In this document: positions 55,948 through 64,000 of the stretch, piece by piece | Numbering within the stretch: position 1 is the first letter of the stretch | How the letters are laid out: every line of letters starts with the position of its first letter | NCBI RefSeq assembly: GCF_000166355.1 | Contig: NC_014652.1 | Location: 2,144,928-2,208,927 of the forward strand | Direction of reading: 5' to 3' | Source: Caldicellulosiruptor hydrothermalis 108 | GTDB lineage: Bacteria > Bacillota > Thermoanaerobacteria > Caldicellulosiruptorales > Caldicellulosiruptoraceae | DNA length: 64,000 nt | Notes under the pieces: generated by a model | Databases searched by the model: none | What the model saw: the letters and a program-made list of their open reading frames with translations, nothing else | What the model was told of the DNA's origin: nothing | Program-made: the position numbers and the translations under genes

Positions 55948-56937
55948 TCACAATTCCAATCTTTTTACATATTCTTCAAGCTCACAATACGCTTCAAAAT
56001 TCAGTTTTTTCCCAAGCTCCTCTTTTATCTGAATAAGATCAAGAATCAAGATTTCAAATAAAGCTATGCCTGTTCTCTCACCCACGCCCCTGATACAGCA
56101 ATTTGCAGTTGATGCTCCAAACAGCCATGCACATACTGCGTTTGCCTGGGCTTTATAAAAATCATTGTGACCGTGCCACTCAAGTCTTTGATGGGAAAGA
56201 CCGCAATGTAGCCGCAGGACGTTTATAAGCCTTGGAACACCTCGGGGCAAACTTGCATACTCGTAGGGAACACCCAATCCCAATGTGTCACAAAGTTTAT
56301 AACGAATCTCTATCCCTGTGTTTTTTGTTTTACTTTCAATTAACATAATAAAAGGTATCACAAAGTTTTGGATATCAGCCCTTGTAATATCCTCAATGTG
56401 AATTCTTGGTTTTAAGTTTAAAGCCAGAGCTTCTTCAATTATATCTATATACTCTTTTACAACTTCATACCTTGTCTTGCCAAACTTTTTGTAAATATGA
56501 TAGTCTGATGCTGGCATCAAAATTCCAACCTCATCAAGCCCCAACTCTTTTGCAATCTTTAGCTCTTCCTTTTTAGCTCTCACCCACCCCACCACCCGTG
56601 GAAATTTGAATCCTTTCTTTAAACACTTTTCAACGCATCGTCTGTGATAGTTTGTATAAAGGAAAAATTCTGAGTATTCTATTGTTCCGGTTTCGTTATC
56701 TATATAATGGAAATATTCAAAAATTCTTTCCACGTTATCTTCTCCTATATACGAAATTGCTTGCTGACCTTCTCTGAATGTGCTATCTGAAATGCAAAGA
56801 GTTTCTGGAATATCTAAAGGAACGGGTGTATCTTCAAAAGGTATCTTTGGTATTGAGGTGTACGGAAATATATCTTTAAAATAATTTGGTGCGTTCTTTG
56901 ATAGAACTTCATATTCCTCATTTTCAATTTTGAGCAT
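55948..56937 (-). CDS. HMGL-type condensing enzyme, Re-citrate synthase-like; possible homocitrate/citrate supplier
   Basis: 329 residues from the second ATG (GAGGAG nine bases before it). Metal and active-site motifs of the pyruvate-carboxyltransferase family: ISDSTFREGQQ, HIEDITRAD, EWHGHNDFYKA and GVGERTG. Several blocks recall Re-citrate synthase more than NifV: TIEYSEFFLYT, VVGWVRA, GILMPASDYHIYKKFGKTR, CDTLGLGVPYEYASLPRGVP. It ends about 100 residues earlier than the usual Re-citrate synthase. It follows modB by 30 bases, so it is the last nif-operon gene, and could make homocitrate or citrate. Confidence 0.7.
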   Translation of the reverse strand: MLKIENEEYEVLSKNAPNYFKDIFPYTSIPKIPFEDTPVPLDIPETLCISDSTFREGQQAISYIGEDNVERIFEYFHYIDNETGTIEYSEFFLYTNYHRRCVEKCLKKGFKFPRVVGWVRAKKEELKIAKELGLDEVGILMPASDYHIYKKFGKTRYEVVKEYIDIIEEALALNLKPRIHIEDITRADIQNFVIPFIMLIESKTKNTGIEIRYKLCDTLGLGVPYEYASLPRGVPRLINVLRLHCGLSHQRLEWHGHNDFYKAQANAVCAWLFGASTANCCIRGVGERTGIALFEILILDLIQIKEELGKKLNFEAYCELEEYVKRLEL

Positions 56938-56966
56938 TGTTCCCATCTCCTCTAACTTTTTGAACT

Positions 56967-57755
56967 TTAATAATCAACATTGTTCAAAAGTTTTTTGGTA
57001 ATATAAAGTAGAAGGTATGAGATGGCTATCATAATAAAGCTTACACAGTAAACTTCATCCTGATTTTGAGCATAAAGTTTATAAATATAAAGAGAAACTG
57101 TTTGAGTTTTGCCGTAAACATTCCCCGCAAAAACAACTGTTGCTCCAAACTCACCAAGCGCTCGTGAGAAGGTCCCAAGTATCCCTATCACAATCCCTTT
57201 TTTGCAAACAGGCAAATACACTTTAAACAAAAGCCCCAGTTCATCCAATCCTAAGATGTACCCTTCTTCTTTGAGCTGTCTATCCACTGCTAAAAATGAA
57301 GTATATGAGACTTTTAAATAATATCCCATCGAAACAAATAGCTGGGCAAGGACAACCGCAGATGTAGTAAATGGAATCTCAAAACCAATTTTGCTCAAAT
57401 ACCTGCCTAAAAACCCCATCCTTCCATAAAGTAAAAGAAGTAAAACTCCTGTTACAATTGGTGGTAGAACATTTGGTAAATCAATTAAAATCTCCAGTAA
57501 TTCATTTTTCCTTCTCAAAGATGAAAGTAAATAGGCAAATGGTGTGCACAGAAAAAATGCCAAAACAGAGCAAATCATAGCTGTAAAAAATGAAAGACCA
57601 AATGCAGTCATGGTCTCTTTTTTTGTTATAGCATTTATTAGTGTAGTATATGGTACAACAAAAATAAGATTTATAAAAGGTAAGAGCAAAAACAGCAAAA
57701 ACGGTACTGATAAAAAGAATATCTTTTTCATATCAAGCTCACACACTTTTTGCAT
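56967..57755 (-). CDS. modB: Molybdate ABC transporter permease
   Basis: 262 residues with about six membrane segments. The EAA loop reads GTFSRALGEFGATVVFAGN as in ModB/CysW-type permeases. The start is uncertain: ATG at 57755 lacks a clear ribosome-binding site; an ATG 24 bases later (MKKIFF) is also possible. Modest gap to modA. No modC ATPase is in the window. Confidence 0.88.
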   Translation of the reverse strand: MQKVCELDMKKIFFLSVPFLLFLLLPFINLIFVVPYTTLINAITKKETMTAFGLSFFTAMICSVLAFFLCTPFAYLLSSLRRKNELLEILIDLPNVLPPIVTGVLLLLLYGRMGFLGRYLSKIGFEIPFTTSAVVLAQLFVSMGYYLKVSYTSFLAVDRQLKEEGYILGLDELGLLFKVYLPVCKKGIVIGILGTFSRALGEFGATVVFAGNVYGKTQTVSLYIYKLYAQNQDEVYCVSFIMIAISYLLLYITKKLLNNVDY

Positions 57756-57772
57756 TATTTAAAAAAGACCAA

Positions 57773-58558
57773 TCATTCATACCCCTTTTCTTTTAAGAGC
57801 TTTGCAATGGTTTTGGTCTTAATAAAAGCCATAAAATCTTTTGCAAGCTTTGGATTTTTAGCTTTCTCTATAGCTGCAACATAGTGGCTTGCAACTATAT
57901 TATACTTTTCTGGAATGTTTATTATCTTGAGCTTTGTAAGTTTTGCATCAGTAAAATAAACAATCCCAGCGTCAGCTTCACCAACCTTTACTTTTTGAAT
58001 TACATCAGTGAGCTCAAACTCCTGCGAAATAATGTTGGCTATTATACCGCTGTAAAGACTCTTGTTATCATTTTTTATCTTGTCAATTACCATCTTTGTA
58101 TACATGCCAATGGGAGACACAGGATCAGCTATACAAAGCCTTATCCCCTTTTTTGAAATATCCTCAAACTTTTTTATGCTTGGGGAACTTGATATTACAG
58201 ATAGTTTTGTTTTGGCAAAAATTTCGTATTTATCTATATATTTGGCCTTTTTTAGGCTATCAATATACCTTCTGTCTGCTGAAAAAAATACATCACACCT
58301 TGCTCCATTTTTTAACTGTGTAACAAGCACGTGTGTTCCTGCAACATTGAGAACAACTTTACATGATTTTTGTTTTTCGAACTGTTTAGAAATGTCTTTT
58401 ACAATACTTTCCAACGTATTAGGTACAAAAACAATCAAACTTTCTTTTTTGGTTTTATCTTTGCTAAAAGATACATTAGAAACTGTTGAGAATAAAAAAG
58501 ATGCTATTATAAAAAAATAGACACATCGCATCTTAAAAATAAAAAGTTTTTTTATCAT
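57773..58558 (-). CDS. modA: Molybdate-binding protein
   Basis: 261 residues from the ATG at 58558 (AGGAAG nine bases before it); an earlier ATG at 58585 lies before that site. Signal sequence (CVYFFIIASFLFSTVS), then the ModA fold: VFVPNTLESIVKDISKQFE, GARCDVFFSADRRYID, IADPVSPIGMYTKM, GEADAGIVYFTDA. Delivers molybdate to ModB. No lipobox Cys is seen. The location inside the nif operon fits supply of Mo for nitrogenase. Confidence 0.9.
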   Translation of the reverse strand: MIKKLFIFKMRCVYFFIIASFLFSTVSNVSFSKDKTKKESLIVFVPNTLESIVKDISKQFEKQKSCKVVLNVAGTHVLVTQLKNGARCDVFFSADRRYIDSLKKAKYIDKYEIFAKTKLSVISSSPSIKKFEDISKKGIRLCIADPVSPIGMYTKMVIDKIKNDNKSLYSGIIANIISQEFELTDVIQKVKVGEADAGIVYFTDAKLTKLKIINIPEKYNIVASHYVAAIEKAKNPKLAKDFMAFIKTKTIAKLLKEKGYE

Positions 58559-58604
58559 TTCCTGCATCTTCCTTTCATCTTGCAAAATGCATGACCAGCT
58601 TACT

Positions 58605-58931
58605 TTACATAAAAAGCTCTACAATCTCTTTTAAAGCATCTTTTATAAACCCTTGTCTTTCCAAGACAATTTTGTCTGAAAGTTTTTCCAAGGCACAAAG
58701 CCCAATTCTATTTGCTACAATTACATCACAGTCTTTTAGCATATCCACTCTCTTTTCCATCCTCTGCTCATTAGAACAATCTTCTTTCCAGTCATCAAAT
58801 TCTCTAACACATATGAGTTCACAGCTCCCATCGCTGAAAAGATCAACTATTAGAAAATTTTCGCTATTCCCAAAATGTCTATTTACAAGTCTTCCATCGC
58901 TTGTTGCAATTGCCACTCTCTTTTTCTTCAT
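58605..58931 (-). CDS. NifX/NifB-C-terminal-like FeMo-cofactor carrier
   Basis: 108 residues. N-terminal RVAIATSDGRLVNRHFGNSENFLIVD is the hallmark of the NifX/NafY/NifB-C family, which binds NifB-co or FeMo-co during cofactor assembly. CDVIVANRIGLCALEKL near 70 is the second block. Starts 21 bases after nifB; no NifB C-terminal fusion is present, so this is the separate carrier. Annotated nifX in many genomes. Confidence 0.88.
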   Translation of the reverse strand: MKKKRVAIATSDGRLVNRHFGNSENFLIVDLFSDGSCELICVREFDDWKEDCSNEQRMEKRVDMLKDCDVIVANRIGLCALEKLSDKIVLERQGFIKDALKEIVELFM

Positions 58932-58952
58932 CTTTTTATCACCACCACTTTT

Positions 58953-59753
58953 TCACACAAGCAATCCTGCTTCATCCGACCTGCACTGTCTGCAATGGGT
59001 CACAAGCTGAATTATTTTACTACACTTTTCTCTTACTTGAGCAAGAACACTACAAGAGGGTTTTTCAATATCAGAAAATTTTGCATATGGTATGATCGGC
59101 ATTATATTCATCACCTTAGCACCAAGTTCTTTGACTCTTGCAGCAATCTCTTCAATGTGATGGCTATTTATTCCAGGTATCAAAACTGTATTTACCTTCA
59201 CCACAAGTCCAAGCTTGGATGCTTTGTAGATACCATGTTGCTGTTTATGGACAATAAGCTCAGCCGCCTCTTTGCCAAAATATAGTAGTTCGTTGTACAT
59301 GGCAAATTCATAAATGTTCTGAGCAATATTGCTATCTACTGCGTTGACTGTGACTGTCACATATTTGACATTATAATTTAAAAGTACTTCCGCCAAATCT
59401 TCTAATAAAAGTCCATTTGTGCTTATACAAAACTCTGCTTGAGTATCATAATTTCTTATAAGCTCAAACGTTTCAAATGTTTCTTGATTGAAGAGAGGAT
59501 CGCCAGGTCCAGAAATTCCTACTATCTTTATAGTTTGGTCTTTGCTTGTGATATCCTTGTACCTTAAAAGCGCCTCTTGAGGAGTTAACACTTTTGAGCA
59601 TGCGCCAGGGTGAGAATCGTTTATGCATGAGATGTTCCTGTCACAGTAATTACATTTGATATTGCAAGACTTTGCAACAGGAAGATGTATTCTGCCAATT
59701 TTATATATAACATCTTTGTTGAAACACGGATGACCCAGCAGTCTACTTTCCAT
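58953..59753 (-). CDS. nifB: NifB, nitrogenase cofactor radical-SAM enzyme
   Basis: 266 residues, core-only NifB without the NifX-like tail. HPCF at residue 8-11, radical-SAM cluster CxxxCxxC at Cys30, 34 and 37 (SCNIKCNYC), GISGPGDPLFN, and the C-terminal CRQCRSDEAG. It builds the 8Fe core NifB-co with a central carbide from two 4Fe clusters and SAM. GGAGGT is nine bases before the ATG. It is one base after nifE. Confidence 0.96.
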   Translation of the reverse strand: MESRLLGHPCFNKDVIYKIGRIHLPVAKSCNIKCNYCDRNISCINDSHPGACSKVLTPQEALLRYKDITSKDQTIKIVGISGPGDPLFNQETFETFELIRNYDTQAEFCISTNGLLLEDLAEVLLNYNVKYVTVTVNAVDSNIAQNIYEFAMYNELLYFGKEAAELIVHKQQHGIYKASKLGLVVKVNTVLIPGINSHHIEEIAARVKELGAKVMNIMPIIPYAKFSDIEKPSCSVLAQVREKCSKIIQLVTHCRQCRSDEAGLLV

Positions 59754-59754
59754 C

Positions 59755-61044
59755 TCAAATCAACCTCCATACAGGTGAGAGTATTTCTTTGTACAAATCC
59801 TCACACATGTTTAAAAAACCTTCAAAACATGCATATGGTTTTGTCTCCTGAGGAAGTACCAAAAAGGGTACTCCAAACTTGTGTGCAAGATACCATTCCC
59901 TTGTTCCGCCAATAAATACATCAGGTTTTATCCTCAAGAGAATCTCCTCTATTTCTGCACAGTTAAAATCATCTATAAAAAGTGCAGAAGGAAGCTCAAA
60001 CCGTGCAGCCTCATAATCGATATTGCATCCAAACTGACTTCCACATACACAAATTTCAAGTCCTGCTTCTTTAAATGCACCAGTCATAAAACCTATCCTT
60101 GAACCTCCAAGAAGAATAACCGCTTTTTTGCCAAAAATCTTCTTTTTATACTTCTCAAGCTTATCTTTTATTTTTTCATACTCTTCCGAAATGACCATCT
60201 CTACTTTATGTTCAATACCAAAAAATTTAGAAATCCTTTTAAGGCAATTTATAGTATTGCTAAGTCCATAGAAGGAAACATCCACAAAAGGAATAGAGTA
60301 TTTTTCTCTCATAAACTGAGCAAGTAAAAGTCCAGAGCTTTTACAAACAAGCAAGTTAAGCGCTGCAGATGTGCTTTCTTGCATAAGGTCTGCATCACAA
60401 TTACCTGTATAGCTACATATAACCTTTATTCCTATCTTTTCTAACAGTTTTTTTACAACTATCGTCTCTCCTGCCACATTGTACTCCCCAATTATGTTTA
60501 CAGAAAATGGCTGTGTACTTTCTTTTCTGCAATACTCTGAAAGATAACTTATAATAGCCCTCTGGGCTATGTGGTGCCCGTCTGACTGAGAAAACCCTCC
60601 AAACCCAGGAACCTCAACAGGAATGATAGGTTTTTGTACTTTTTCTTTTACCCTTTCTACAACCCACTTTATGTCTTCTCCAATCTGAGAAGATGTGCAT
60701 GTAGAATATACGAATATCATACTGTGTTCAGGAAAGATTTTTGCTGCTTCTTCAATACACCTTTCAAGCTTTTCATGCGCACCAAAAATAACATCCTTTT
60801 CATTCATATCAGTTGAGAGTATTAAATAATTCTTCTTCCTTACATTCTGACCATAATATGCACAGTCAGCAGGTGCGTGCACAATGTGAGTTGAATTTCT
60901 TACAGGGGCAAGAACCCAGCGCGCCCCATAATAGGTACAAGCGCGCTGGGACATCACACCTGGAATTGTTGGTCTTGAACACTGAGGTATTCCACTCTGT
61001 ACAATGTGCCCCTGTCTTTGCTCCAAAAAAGCTTTTATAGCCAT
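59755..61044 (-). CDS. nifE: NifE-like cofactor scaffold subunit
   Basis: 429 residues of the nitrogenase component 1 family. Cluster cysteines Cys36 (QRACTYYG), Cys61 (ADCAYYG) and Cys116 (STCTSSQIGED) are present. The cofactor Cys site is kept (LNLLVCKSSG), but the His ligand region reads PQETKPY without His, as expected for a scaffold and not a catalytic subunit. NifE with NifN matures FeMo-co. No nifN follows: nifB begins one base downstream. Starts 25 bases after nifK. Confidence 0.9.
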   Translation of the reverse strand: MAIKAFLEQRQGHIVQSGIPQCSRPTIPGVMSQRACTYYGARWVLAPVRNSTHIVHAPADCAYYGQNVRKKNYLILSTDMNEKDVIFGAHEKLERCIEEAAKIFPEHSMIFVYSTCTSSQIGEDIKWVVERVKEKVQKPIIPVEVPGFGGFSQSDGHHIAQRAIISYLSEYCRKESTQPFSVNIIGEYNVAGETIVVKKLLEKIGIKVICSYTGNCDADLMQESTSAALNLLVCKSSGLLLAQFMREKYSIPFVDVSFYGLSNTINCLKRISKFFGIEHKVEMVISEEYEKIKDKLEKYKKKIFGKKAVILLGGSRIGFMTGAFKEAGLEICVCGSQFGCNIDYEAARFELPSALFIDDFNCAEIEEILLRIKPDVFIGGTREWYLAHKFGVPFLVLPQETKPYACFEGFLNMCEDLYKEILSPVWRLI

Positions 61045-61069: not shown

Positions 61070-62449
61070 TTACTGGTGAAGTTTATCATGCGGATAAGAA
61101 TAGTCCAAGATTGTATTTACAATCAAATCCAAAAGCCAGATACTTCCTTTATACCCTGTTATTCCATATCTGAAATATCCAACCCTGTCGTATACAGGGA
61201 AGCCTATTCTCACAACAGGGCATTTTACTGATTTTGCAACTTCAACTGCTTTTGAGTTGCCAAGTATGACTTCAACCCCTGCCTCTTTTGCTAAGTATTC
61301 AAATTCATAAAGGTCGCTGTCTACAAGAATTTCACCTTCAATGTTATACTCATCAAAGATTTTCTTTATCTCATCGGCAAAGGTAGGAGAAGGCGTTGCT
61401 GTCTCCACCACCTTTACATCCATCCCAAGTTCACACAAAAACCTGGTAACAGCTATTACAATGTCAGGGTCGCCAAACACAGCTGCCCTTCTCATCATTG
61501 TATACTGGCAAGTATCTGCCATAGCATCTAAAAGAAGACCTCTTTCAACTTTGACTTCCTCTGGAATTTCAATTCCGCAGACTAAAGCAACATTTTCAAT
61601 AAACTTATCTGTATTTTCTACTCCAACCGGGAACGGACCAAGGATACTTTTTACACCAAACTCACTTTCCAAATAACTTGCACCAGACCCACCTGCATGA
61701 GGACAAAGAGCTAAGACGGCTTTACCGTTTGCACAGTCTTCAAGCTCCTGCCATGGCGTGCCACCTTCTGGATAGAGCGGTTTTGGAGGCATCAGTGGTG
61801 AGTTTAAGGTTTTTGAAATATCAAATAAAACTGAGTATTCTATACCCATTAAATTTAGAAGATATTTTACCTCTTCGATGTCGCCGGGATTAATCATTCC
61901 TGGAATAATATATAGTTTTTGGTTTGGTTCTTTTGATTTTGCAAAGTACTTAATATACGAAATTGTTGCTGTGTCATAGCCTTTGACATGTGTTCCTGCA
62001 TAACTTGGTGTATGAATTGGCACAACAAACACGCTTTGTGCAACCTCATCACCCAGTTCTTCTCTCACCTTTTTATATGCCTCTTTTATAAAAGCTTCTA
62101 TATCGTCTCCTATGGTTTCGCTTGAACATGTTGTAACAACACCTATCACCTTTGGCGCATATCTAAAAATAAGATTTCTTATTCCCTCTATAAGATTTCT
62201 TCTTCCGCCAAACACAGCCGCATCTTCGTGGAAAGATGTCACTGCAATGTTCACAGGTTCTTTGAAGTGCCTGTTGAACTGGTATCGAACATAAGTGCAG
62301 CATCCTTGAGAACCTTGAACAAGGGGCACTGCCTTGTCAATACCAAGCGTTGCATACATTGCACCAATTGGTTGACACATCTTTGGAGGATTTATGGTAA
62401 CATGCCTGTTTGCTTTCGTAATTAGCGGACTGCTAAGTTTTGTTGCCAT
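61070..62449 (-). CDS. nifK: Nitrogenase MoFe protein beta subunit
   Basis: 459 residues; the ATG at 62449 has GGAGGTG nine bases before it and overlaps the end of nifD. P-cluster cysteines Cys25 (PKMCQPIGA), Cys50 (GSQGCCTYVR) and Cys108 (TTCSSETIGDD). It lacks the N-terminal extension of about 50 residues of proteobacterial NifK, a short form typical of clostridial and archaeal enzymes. It pairs with NifD. Confidence 0.96.
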   Translation of the reverse strand: MATKLSSPLITKANRHVTINPPKMCQPIGAMYATLGIDKAVPLVQGSQGCCTYVRYQFNRHFKEPVNIAVTSFHEDAAVFGGRRNLIEGIRNLIFRYAPKVIGVVTTCSSETIGDDIEAFIKEAYKKVREELGDEVAQSVFVVPIHTPSYAGTHVKGYDTATISYIKYFAKSKEPNQKLYIIPGMINPGDIEEVKYLLNLMGIEYSVLFDISKTLNSPLMPPKPLYPEGGTPWQELEDCANGKAVLALCPHAGGSGASYLESEFGVKSILGPFPVGVENTDKFIENVALVCGIEIPEEVKVERGLLLDAMADTCQYTMMRRAAVFGDPDIVIAVTRFLCELGMDVKVVETATPSPTFADEIKKIFDEYNIEGEILVDSDLYEFEYLAKEAGVEVILGNSKAVEVAKSVKCPVVRIGFPVYDRVGYFRYGITGYKGSIWLLDLIVNTILDYSYPHDKLHQ

Positions 62450-63816
62450 TGTGATGCCCACCTCCTGTCAACAAATTTCCAAACTGGAGCATAGAGTGAC
62501 TTGTAAAGGTCTCTTGCAAAATTGACCAAACCTTCAAAAGCTACATATGGCCCATTTTCGTAAGAATGTGAGTTCAAAGATGGAACACCAATCTTGTGTG
62601 CAAGGTATTTCTCTTTCAATCCTGTGAGGAATATATCGGGTTTGTACTTTTCTATAACCTCTTCAAGCTCAAGCTCGTTAGGATTATCGATCACCAAAAC
62701 TCCATCGTCTGCTTTTGCGTTTATCTTTTCATAATCATCCTCATGCCCAAATGTTGTAGCACATGCAACAACTTCTATCCCAAGGTCACGCATTAGCGGT
62801 ATCCAGTGCCAGACTCTCGGTGCTCCAACGTAAATCATTGCACGCTTGCCACGAAGCTTTTCTCTGAAAAACTCAAGCCTTGGCATAATACTTTCGAGCT
62901 CTTCTTCAATCACTTCTTCCACCTTTTTCTCAATTCCAAAAAACTTTCCTATCTCCCTAAGGGAATTAATTGTTTCGGTAATTCCAAAAAGTGTTACCCT
63001 GATAAATGGCGTGCCGTACTTTTCTTTCATAAGCCTTGCAATGTATGTTGCTGACCTCTGGCAGTGGACAATGTTGAGCTTTGCATAGTGCATCTTGCAC
63101 AGATTATCATAAGAAGCGTTTCCAGTAAATGCTGTTATAATCCTCAAGCCAATCTTTGTGAATAGCTTCTCAAGCACCCAATAATCTCCATCAATGTTGT
63201 ACTCGCCTATAATATTAACGTCATACGGTGTTGGGTCTTCAAGTTCTTTTGTCCCAACAATCTTTTCAAAGATTGTGTGATTTGCGATATGATGACCTTT
63301 AGACTGCGACACCCCGCAAAAACCCGGTGAATTGAATGCAATGACTGGTTTTCCTATTGCTTTTGAAGCTTTTTTGGCAACAGCTTCTAAATCATCACCA
63401 ATTAGGGCAGTTGGACATGTTGCATATATAAATACCGCTTTGGCTTCAGGAAACTGCTGGTTTGCTTCAATTATTGCATTGTAAAGCTTCTTTTCCCCAC
63501 CGAAAACTATGTCTTTTTCTTGCATGTCAGTTGAAAAGCAATACTTTCTATGAAATTCACTATCGGATAGGTGTCTTCGTGATGACCACGTATAATATGC
63601 ACAGCCAATTGGCCCATGGACTATCTGAATTACATCTTTAACAGGTCCTCCAACAACACCTCTTGCTCCTGCAAATGCACAACCACGCTCTGTCATGTCA
63701 CCCGGGATGGTTCTTACATTGCACACAGGTACAACAGGATTGTTCCTGTCAGTTATATATGTGTGTTTTCCTCTTTCTTCAATGCACTTGTCACAGTCTA
63801 AAGTCACAAATGGCAT
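62422..63816 (-). CDS. nifD: Nitrogenase catalytic alpha subunit (NifD, basal type)
   Basis: 464 residues from the ATG at 63816 (GGGAGGT eight bases before it). P-cluster Cys46, Cys72 and Cys134; cofactor ligands Cys252 (LNIVHCQRSA) and His417 (LNSHSYENGPY); cofactor-pocket Gly53-Val54, Arg80, Gln171 and His175 are present. Thus a catalytic subunit of a nitrogenase, not a scaffold. The pocket is mixed: GV, HC and Q/H as in Mo enzymes, but GAPRVWHW (331-338) as in V/Fe enzymes. There is no VnfG/AnfG delta gene between nifD and nifK. First gene of this operon segment; nifH is not in the window. Confidence 0.95.
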   Translation of the reverse strand: MPFVTLDCDKCIEERGKHTYITDRNNPVVPVCNVRTIPGDMTERGCAFAGARGVVGGPVKDVIQIVHGPIGCAYYTWSSRRHLSDSEFHRKYCFSTDMQEKDIVFGGEKKLYNAIIEANQQFPEAKAVFIYATCPTALIGDDLEAVAKKASKAIGKPVIAFNSPGFCGVSQSKGHHIANHTIFEKIVGTKELEDPTPYDVNIIGEYNIDGDYWVLEKLFTKIGLRIITAFTGNASYDNLCKMHYAKLNIVHCQRSATYIARLMKEKYGTPFIRVTLFGITETINSLREIGKFFGIEKKVEEVIEEELESIMPRLEFFREKLRGKRAMIYVGAPRVWHWIPLMRDLGIEVVACATTFGHEDDYEKINAKADDGVLVIDNPNELELEEVIEKYKPDIFLTGLKEKYLAHKIGVPSLNSHSYENGPYVAFEGLVNFARDLYKSLYAPVWKFVDRRWASQWQQNLAVR

Positions 63817-63860
63817 AACTGTCAACCTCCCTTGTATAATTATTTTTAGCCTTTTGCAAA

Positions 63861-63879
63861 AACGCTCAAGATGAGCGTT
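63861..63879 (-). other. Hairpin upstream of nifD
   Basis: AACGCTCA / TGAGCGTT stem with a three-base loop, followed on the minus strand by TTTTTG. Terminator- or attenuator-like, 45 bases before the nifD ATG. No clear -10/-35 is seen between 63817 and 63913. Confidence 0.6.
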
Positions 63880-63913
63880 ATCAAGCTTTACATAGAATCA
63901 AAAAAGACTGGTC

Positions 63914-63976
63914 ACCCTCCTCATAATTGTAGTAAAATATGATTATATAAAACAAATTTTCTACTATGAGGAGGGT
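63914..63976 (+). repeat. 12-bp inverted repeat enclosing a promoter-like region and a ribosome-binding site
   Basis: ACCCTCCTCATA (63914-63925) and TATGAGGAGGGT (63965-63976) are perfect inverted copies; inner GTAG/CTAC also pair. The right arm contains the GAGGAGGG ribosome-binding site of the gene at 63983, so read-in mRNA would hide it. Similar ends occur on transposons, which is a possible reading. Confidence 0.7.
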
Positions 63977-63982
63977 TCCAAA

Positions 63983-64000
63983 ATGTTCAACACCAAACCT
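63983..64000 (+). CDS. Start of an unidentified plus-strand gene (cut by the window edge)
   Basis: ATG seven bases after GAGGAGGG; only MFNTKP is seen. Too short to identify. It may be a transposase, judging by the inverted repeat before it, but that is a guess. Confidence 0.4.

Follow-up and report, generated by a model that had tools for sequence, protein, structure and literature searches.

The window, a 64,000-nucleotide stretch of the Caldicellulosiruptor hydrothermalis 108 genome (a single contig of 2,770,676 bases), carries on its minus strand an operon in the order nifD-nifK-nifE-nifB-nifX-like-modA-modB-homocitrate-synthase-like, with nifD first. The nifD gene (62422-63816) encodes 464 amino acids from an ATG at 63816 with GGGAGG upstream, and its profile scores, alignment and tree position assign it to the Group III (Nif-C) type; the only translated plus-strand frame across 62422-63816 is riddled with stops. 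The nifK gene (61070-62449) starts with an ATG at 62449 and thus overlaps nifD, whose stop lies at 62422, by 28 nt, so that no delta-subunit gene lies between the two, as had been stated in a preliminary description of this DNA. NifK keeps three Cys motifs, which we take to be the P-cluster ligands. The nifE-like gene (59755-61044) scored 347 bits, under the nifE cut-off of 505, and a nifN partner was not found, while the nifB-like gene (58953-59753; 266 aa) covers only positions 9-276 of the 441 in the nifB model. Further downstream are genes for a small protein resembling NifX or the NifB C-terminus (58605-58931), the molybdate-binding protein ModA (57773-58585; 121 bits, cut-off 62.5), a ModB-like permease (56967-57755; 179.7 bits, narrowly under the cut-off of 182.6) and a homocitrate/isopropylmalate synthase family protein (55948-56946; nifV score 97.5, cut-off 462.9), a candidate homocitrate supplier. 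Both modA and modB also belong to the operon in eight other nif-bearing genomes of the genus. In the window, modA and modB (56967-58585) have no adjoining modC, and none of the 74 ABC matches in the genome passed the cut-off of the ModC model.

Outside the window, upstream of nifD, are nifH, with a score above its model cut-off, and frames named by inspection as nifI1, nifI2, a PII gene and an ammonium transporter gene. The gap between nifI2 and nifD measures roughly 30-45 bp in the eight other nif-bearing genomes of the genus but ~3.8 kb here (window 63826-64000 and L088:745-4582). The window part of the gap is an insertion-sequence end whose transposase frame begins near 63983 on the plus strand, and the whole gap holds two transposase genes, of the DUF772 and IS110 types, on the strand opposite nif. 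Insertion sequences split the nif operon of this strain; a consensus promoter scan of the 401 bases between the insertion sequence and nifD found none on the nif strand, which says little either way. Poor expression of an operon whose nifDKEB genes are cut from nifHI1I2 would be compatible with the Mo-nitrogenase assignment argued below, and we regard it as rather unlikely: the enlarged gap with its transposase genes agrees with it, as does acetylene reduction without ammonium, reported as the lowest among three strains (107 versus 610 and 363; Chen et al., 2021, PMC8209448), but the nif frames are open and C. hydrothermalis 108 still fixes N2 according to the same study.

When translated from the ATG at 63816, NifD contains Cys252, His417, Gln171, His175, Arg80 and Gly53-Val54 at the numbers given previously, together with the N-terminal CDKCIEERGKH and the loop GAPRVWHW (residues 331-338; 62803-62826), which corresponds to A. 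vinelandii positions 356-363 by alignment. The protein passed the cut-offs of two NCBIfam subfamily models, TIGR01862 (633 bits) and TIGR01284 (618 bits), and a chance origin is not at issue because of the former score. Its score against the nifD equivalog (521 bits, under the 654 cut-off) is nearly equal to that against VNFD (513 bits, under the 823 cut-off), and the ANFD model gave 465 bits, under its cut-off of 874. Matches to this NifD were present in 10 of the 13 family genomes and in 9 of the 12 genus genomes, the source genome being counted, and the NifDs of eight other genus genomes are 95-99% identical to that of the window. The search of viral contigs yielded no relatives.

Our alignment comprised 77 NifD-like proteins, taken from the window and from fetched loci, as well as five PDB chains and six NifE sequences. 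The alignment and tree contain 77 of the 82 unique D-like sequences, as three partial genes (L074, L076, L088) and two NifE-like sequences (L070, L021) were dropped. The loop (GGLR, GGSR, Q355 and the rest) served to name the groups, except for Vnf, Anf, NifE and two Bathyarchaeota rows. VnfD is represented by one sequence, and 0 of the 299 genomes of the phylum reached the VNFD cut-off. The window clade consists of 41 rows, 40 from DNA plus chain 9spz.

Ala65, Gly69 and Arg96 were found in all group I (11/11), group II (15/15), window-clade (41/41), Chloroflexales-type (8/8) and Bathyarchaeota (2/2) rows. VnfD (1/1) and AnfD (4/4) have Cys65, Leu/His69 and Lys96 instead, in agreement with the earlier remark that alternative enzymes usually carry Leu or His at the Gly site. 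Pro358-Arg359 with Trp361-His362-Trp363 occurs in 41/41 window-clade, 8/8 Chloroflexales-type and 2/2 Bathyarchaeota rows, counts that are partly circular since the loop helped to name the groups; the corresponding residues are L358, R361 and V/T363 in group I, and S358, H/N361 and Y/F363 in group II. The preliminary description gave GGLRPRH as the loop of Mo NifD, which is right for group I (GGLRxRH) but not for group II (GGSRxHH or close). The combination of Ala65/Gly69/Arg96 with GxPRxWHW at 356-363 is present in 51/51 rows of the wider lineage, 0/26 group I/II Mo NifDs and 0/5 VnfD/AnfD. In the window NifD, the pocket is Mo-like in A65, G69, R96, CQRS and a Thr rather than Lys at position 380, and has Val355, not the Thr of V enzymes, while Pro358, Trp361, Trp363 and Asn440 are V- or V/Fe-like. 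Position 357 is Ala in the window NifD; within its clade, Ala is found in 15/41 and Gly in 26/41, and Gly is invariant across the 31 rows of Mo I, Mo II, Vnf and Anf. The Mo/V-looking pocket, described earlier as mixed, is a uniform signature of the wider lineage and not peculiar to this protein.

A separate observation concerns the conserved alpha-Cys62 codon, which is TGA in 10 of the 11 shortened frames examined (...MTERG-TGA-AFAG...; L032, L035, L038, L039, L045, L056, L093, L100, L101 and L103), the eleventh, L074, being a partial gene. This TGA probably encodes a putative selenocysteine; selenocysteine at that site was reported for three species (Howard et al., 2013, PMC3760896).

The NifD tree (503 columns, loop columns kept; midpoint-rooted and from a quick search, with long branches flagged) recovered the loop-named groups with one change each. 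The 41 window-clade rows form one clade (SH-aLRT 95), which was tested as the clade of Moorella, Desulforudis and methanogen-type sequences, and the window lies inside it, among nine Caldicellulosiruptor rows (100) adjoining a sequence from another family of the same phylum (G293; 85). One side of the tree (97) holds this clade with the Chloroflexales-type, Bathyarchaeota and Vnf/Anf sequences, and the opposite side (97) holds group I, group II and NifE. The preliminary description inferred a basal or intermediate lineage. A separate nitrogenase lineage is indeed present, but the tree does not establish that it is basal: in AU tests, grouping Caldicellulosiruptor with Mo I/II stayed acceptable (p 0.113), and grouping it with Vnf/Anf was weakly rejected (p 0.045).

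This lineage and its mixed signature have been known since 2013. McGlynn et al. (2013, PMC3578447) listed the loop ixxGxPrxWH of 'uncharacterized' nitrogenases against vGGLRxRH of NifD-A and IWTGGPRLWHW of VnfD in their Table 2, noted that Ala65, Gly69 and Arg96 are kept in the 'uncharacterized' nitrogenases, and concluded that these hold FeMo-co; the models that they name come from members other than Caldicellulosiruptor. Howard et al. (2013, PMC3760896) assigned C. saccharolyticus to Group III as III-01, so that the window NifD falls inside the established groups I-III, and its GxPRxWHW loop is common there (41/41 rows). Garcia et al. (2020, PMC7216921) described an F-Mc clade of thermophilic Firmicutes and methanogens, in most of which nifN is missing, and placed M. 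thermolithotrophicus in it. As Caldicellulosiruptor is not named in the main text of that paper, we only infer that the F-Mc clade is the type of the window NifD. Chen et al. (2021, PMC8209448) reported that Caldicellulosiruptor fixes N2 without nifN and falls in Nif-C. Our literature search found no metal analysis of any Caldicellulosiruptor nitrogenase.

Taken together, the window NifD is very probably the alpha subunit of a Group III (Nif-C, 'uncharacterized') Mo-nitrogenase from Caldicellulosiruptor. The Mo reading is supported by the pocket positions tied to Mo by McGlynn et al. (2013) and Garcia et al. (2020), and by the constancy of the signature in 41/41 rows of a clade with SH-aLRT 95. 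In addition, diazotrophy of M. thermolithotrophicus was reported to be strictly Mo-dependent (PMC9765008, 2022), and reconstitution of Roseiflexus NifDK to be Mo-specific with no need of NifEN (Payá-Tormo et al., 2024, PMC11573651), although the NifDs of these two related nitrogenases were not matched by name to aligned rows. With the Mo-like pocket, modA and modB in the operon, no delta subunit and Mo-dependent relatives, the use of Mo suggested in the preliminary description appears probable. The sub-cut-off nifD score, the near-equal VNFD score and the V/Fe-like residues at 358, 361, 363 and 440 speak against this explanation, as does Ala357, at the site of a glycine that was described as necessary to prevent clashes with FeMo-co (Payá-Tormo et al., 2024).

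The residues at 358, 361, 363 and 440 could also mean that the enzyme is promiscuous, its mixed pocket holding FeV-co, FeFe-co or a proto-cofactor besides FeMo-co. The caution of Howard et al. (2013) that the metal cannot be read strictly from the pocket residues, the 'proto-Mo-cofactor' idea of Garcia et al. (2020) and the missing nifN would agree with such an enzyme. However, Arg96, Ala65 and Gly69 in the pocket, the reported Mo dependence of the two related nitrogenases (PMC11573651; PMC9765008) and the lack of a delta-subunit gene in the genome make it improbable. Neither the vnfG nor the anfG profile found a match in the whole genome, while Methanosarcina acetivorans as a control was positive for both, and the AnfD model matched only NifD, NifE and NifK, none above its cut-off. 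An alternative nitrogenase with its delta subunit encoded elsewhere in the genome is ruled out, since neither vnfG nor anfG was found.

A separate nifN is likewise absent: across the whole genome, the nifN model matched only NifK (257 bits) and NifE (30 bits), both under the cut-off of 327. This cut-off is not sharp, being reached in 0 of the 14 control genomes, and the likely NifNs of two genomes of the same class scored 282 and 280 bits, below their NifKs (326 and 321); the evidence is therefore that the genome holds no third match. The missing nifN and the divergent NifE might suggest a nitrogenase-like enzyme unable to fix N2. We consider this highly improbable, because the cofactor ligands and the NifK Cys motifs are retained and because three Caldicellulosiruptor strains, including C. 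hydrothermalis 108, grew on N2 and reduced acetylene, whereas C. bescii, which is without nif genes, did not grow on N2 (Chen et al., 2021, PMC8209448). The identity of NifE between the two clades of the genus is 66-67%, as against 95% for NifD. NifE nevertheless looks functionally used despite its fast evolution, because dN/dS between the clades is near 0.12 (dN about 0.25; dS about 2, near saturation). The divergence extends over the stretch 55948-61044 of the window, in which nifE, nifB, modA and the homocitrate-synthase-like gene are 53-67% identical between the clades; nifH, nifD and aconitase are 94-99.6% identical, although for aconitase the other clade was represented by a single genome.

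The absence of NifN raises the possibility that the single NifK has two roles, serving as the nitrogenase beta subunit and, in place of NifN, as the partner of NifE in a NifE-NifK scaffold. A partnership of NifK with NifE was proposed before (Howard et al., 2013, PMC3760896; Chen et al., 2021, PMC8209448; Lie et al., 2022, PMC8809328), and NifE appears to be involved in Methanocaldococcus FS406-22, which is also without nifN (Lie et al., 2022). Of the 30 lineage loci that are 6 kb or longer, 23 extend for 6 kb or more downstream of nifD, and in these we examined the neighbours of nifD; the counts refer to these neighbours only. A second NifK-like ORF was absent in 19/23 loci and present in four (L042, L056, L060 and L040, the last being partial at a contig end), and a further NifD/NifE-like ORF was present in 17/23. 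In Desulforadius tongensis (L056:11852-13264) and a Desulfotomaculum MAG (L042:8337-9665), the NifK-like ORF lies directly before nifE; the former keeps the three Cys motifs, while the latter has lost the third.

In a NifK tree of 83 of the 104 sequences (21 were removed by hand, namely near-copies, truncated copies and two sequences from partial-nifD loci), the Desulforadius and Desulfotomaculum second copies stand beside Caldicellulosiruptor NifK (92/88, not starred), the Desulfotomaculum copy being long-branched. A second tree of 53 sequences, which omitted the long-branched second copies in L042 and L060, grouped the Desulforadius copy with Caldicellulosiruptor NifK at moderate support (83), and the AU test gave p 0.03 for grouping it with 30 other lineage NifKs. 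Placing the Desulforadius copy in the NifK family of its own neighbour was rejected (AU p 4e-97), and with it an origin by tandem duplication of that NifK. A second NifK before nifE fits a NifE-NifK partnership, which it does not prove, and the dual role of the single NifK stays a tentative proposal. If it is true, the NifK-like gene before nifE would represent a natural intermediate from NifK to NifN, and the tandem NifK genes of the two relatives may serve as a test system for cofactor assembly without NifN.

Two further loci showed peculiarities of their own. In an Archaeoglobaceae MAG, nifDK is followed downstream by another nifD/nifK-like pair (L060:9321-12028), whose first gene scored 457 bits against the window NifD and 277 against the divergent NifE of the window. 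In L140:8417-9792 (G004, a genome of the same genus as the window), nifK has an apparent frameshift at codon 83/84, which could be a sequencing error.

For the Mo-nitrogenase that we favor, NifD and NifK would form an enzyme in which Cys252 and His417 bind a FeMo-co-type cluster and to which electrons would pass from NifH via the P-cluster. Molybdate would be taken up through ModAB and homocitrate would come from the neighbouring synthase. Cofactor assembly would proceed without NifN, because no NifN was found, and its last step might take place on NifE by itself, on a NifE-NifK pair or directly on NifDK.

Compared with known systems, the window NifD shares with VnfD/AnfD (5n6y, 8oie, 8boq) the WHW part of the loop and an IPERxKH-type N-terminal motif, as the preliminary description had partly noted, but these enzymes differ in Cys65, Leu/His69, Lys96, CAR, Lys380 and the delta subunit. 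Thr355 of V enzymes was tied to their carbonate ligand by Garcia et al. (2020). The window NifD falls short of the nifD equivalog cut-off and lacks the GGLRxRH loop of group I, and the canonical Mo system has both nifE and nifN, the latter being missing here. Chloroflexales-type NifDs (Clfx of Garcia et al., 2020) have GGPRxWHW with Ala65, Gly69 and Arg96 in 8/8 rows, as in the window, but differ in Gln355 and in NGH instead of NSH at 440-442, and no nifE-like ORF occurs in the 3/3 loci that extend for 6 kb or more downstream (L051, L053 and L075). The Mo/V-hybrid look beside Azotobacter is thus a standing condition of the whole known lineage, and the loop at 356-363 alone must not serve to call the metal. 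Nothing was found to set the window NifD apart from Group III (Nif-C, 'uncharacterized') nitrogenases, with which it shares GxPRxWH at 356-362, Ala65, Gly69, Arg96, CQRS, the lack of Lys380 and of a delta subunit, and the missing nifN. Among solved chains, the best match is 9spz_A (PDB 9spz/9sq3; 3.6e-193), for which our literature search found no paper naming 9SPZ or 9SQ3; it has the same type of N-terminus and the loop VGGPRTWHW, and differs from the window NifD in small insertions and in Gly357 and Thr360, where the latter has Ala and Val.
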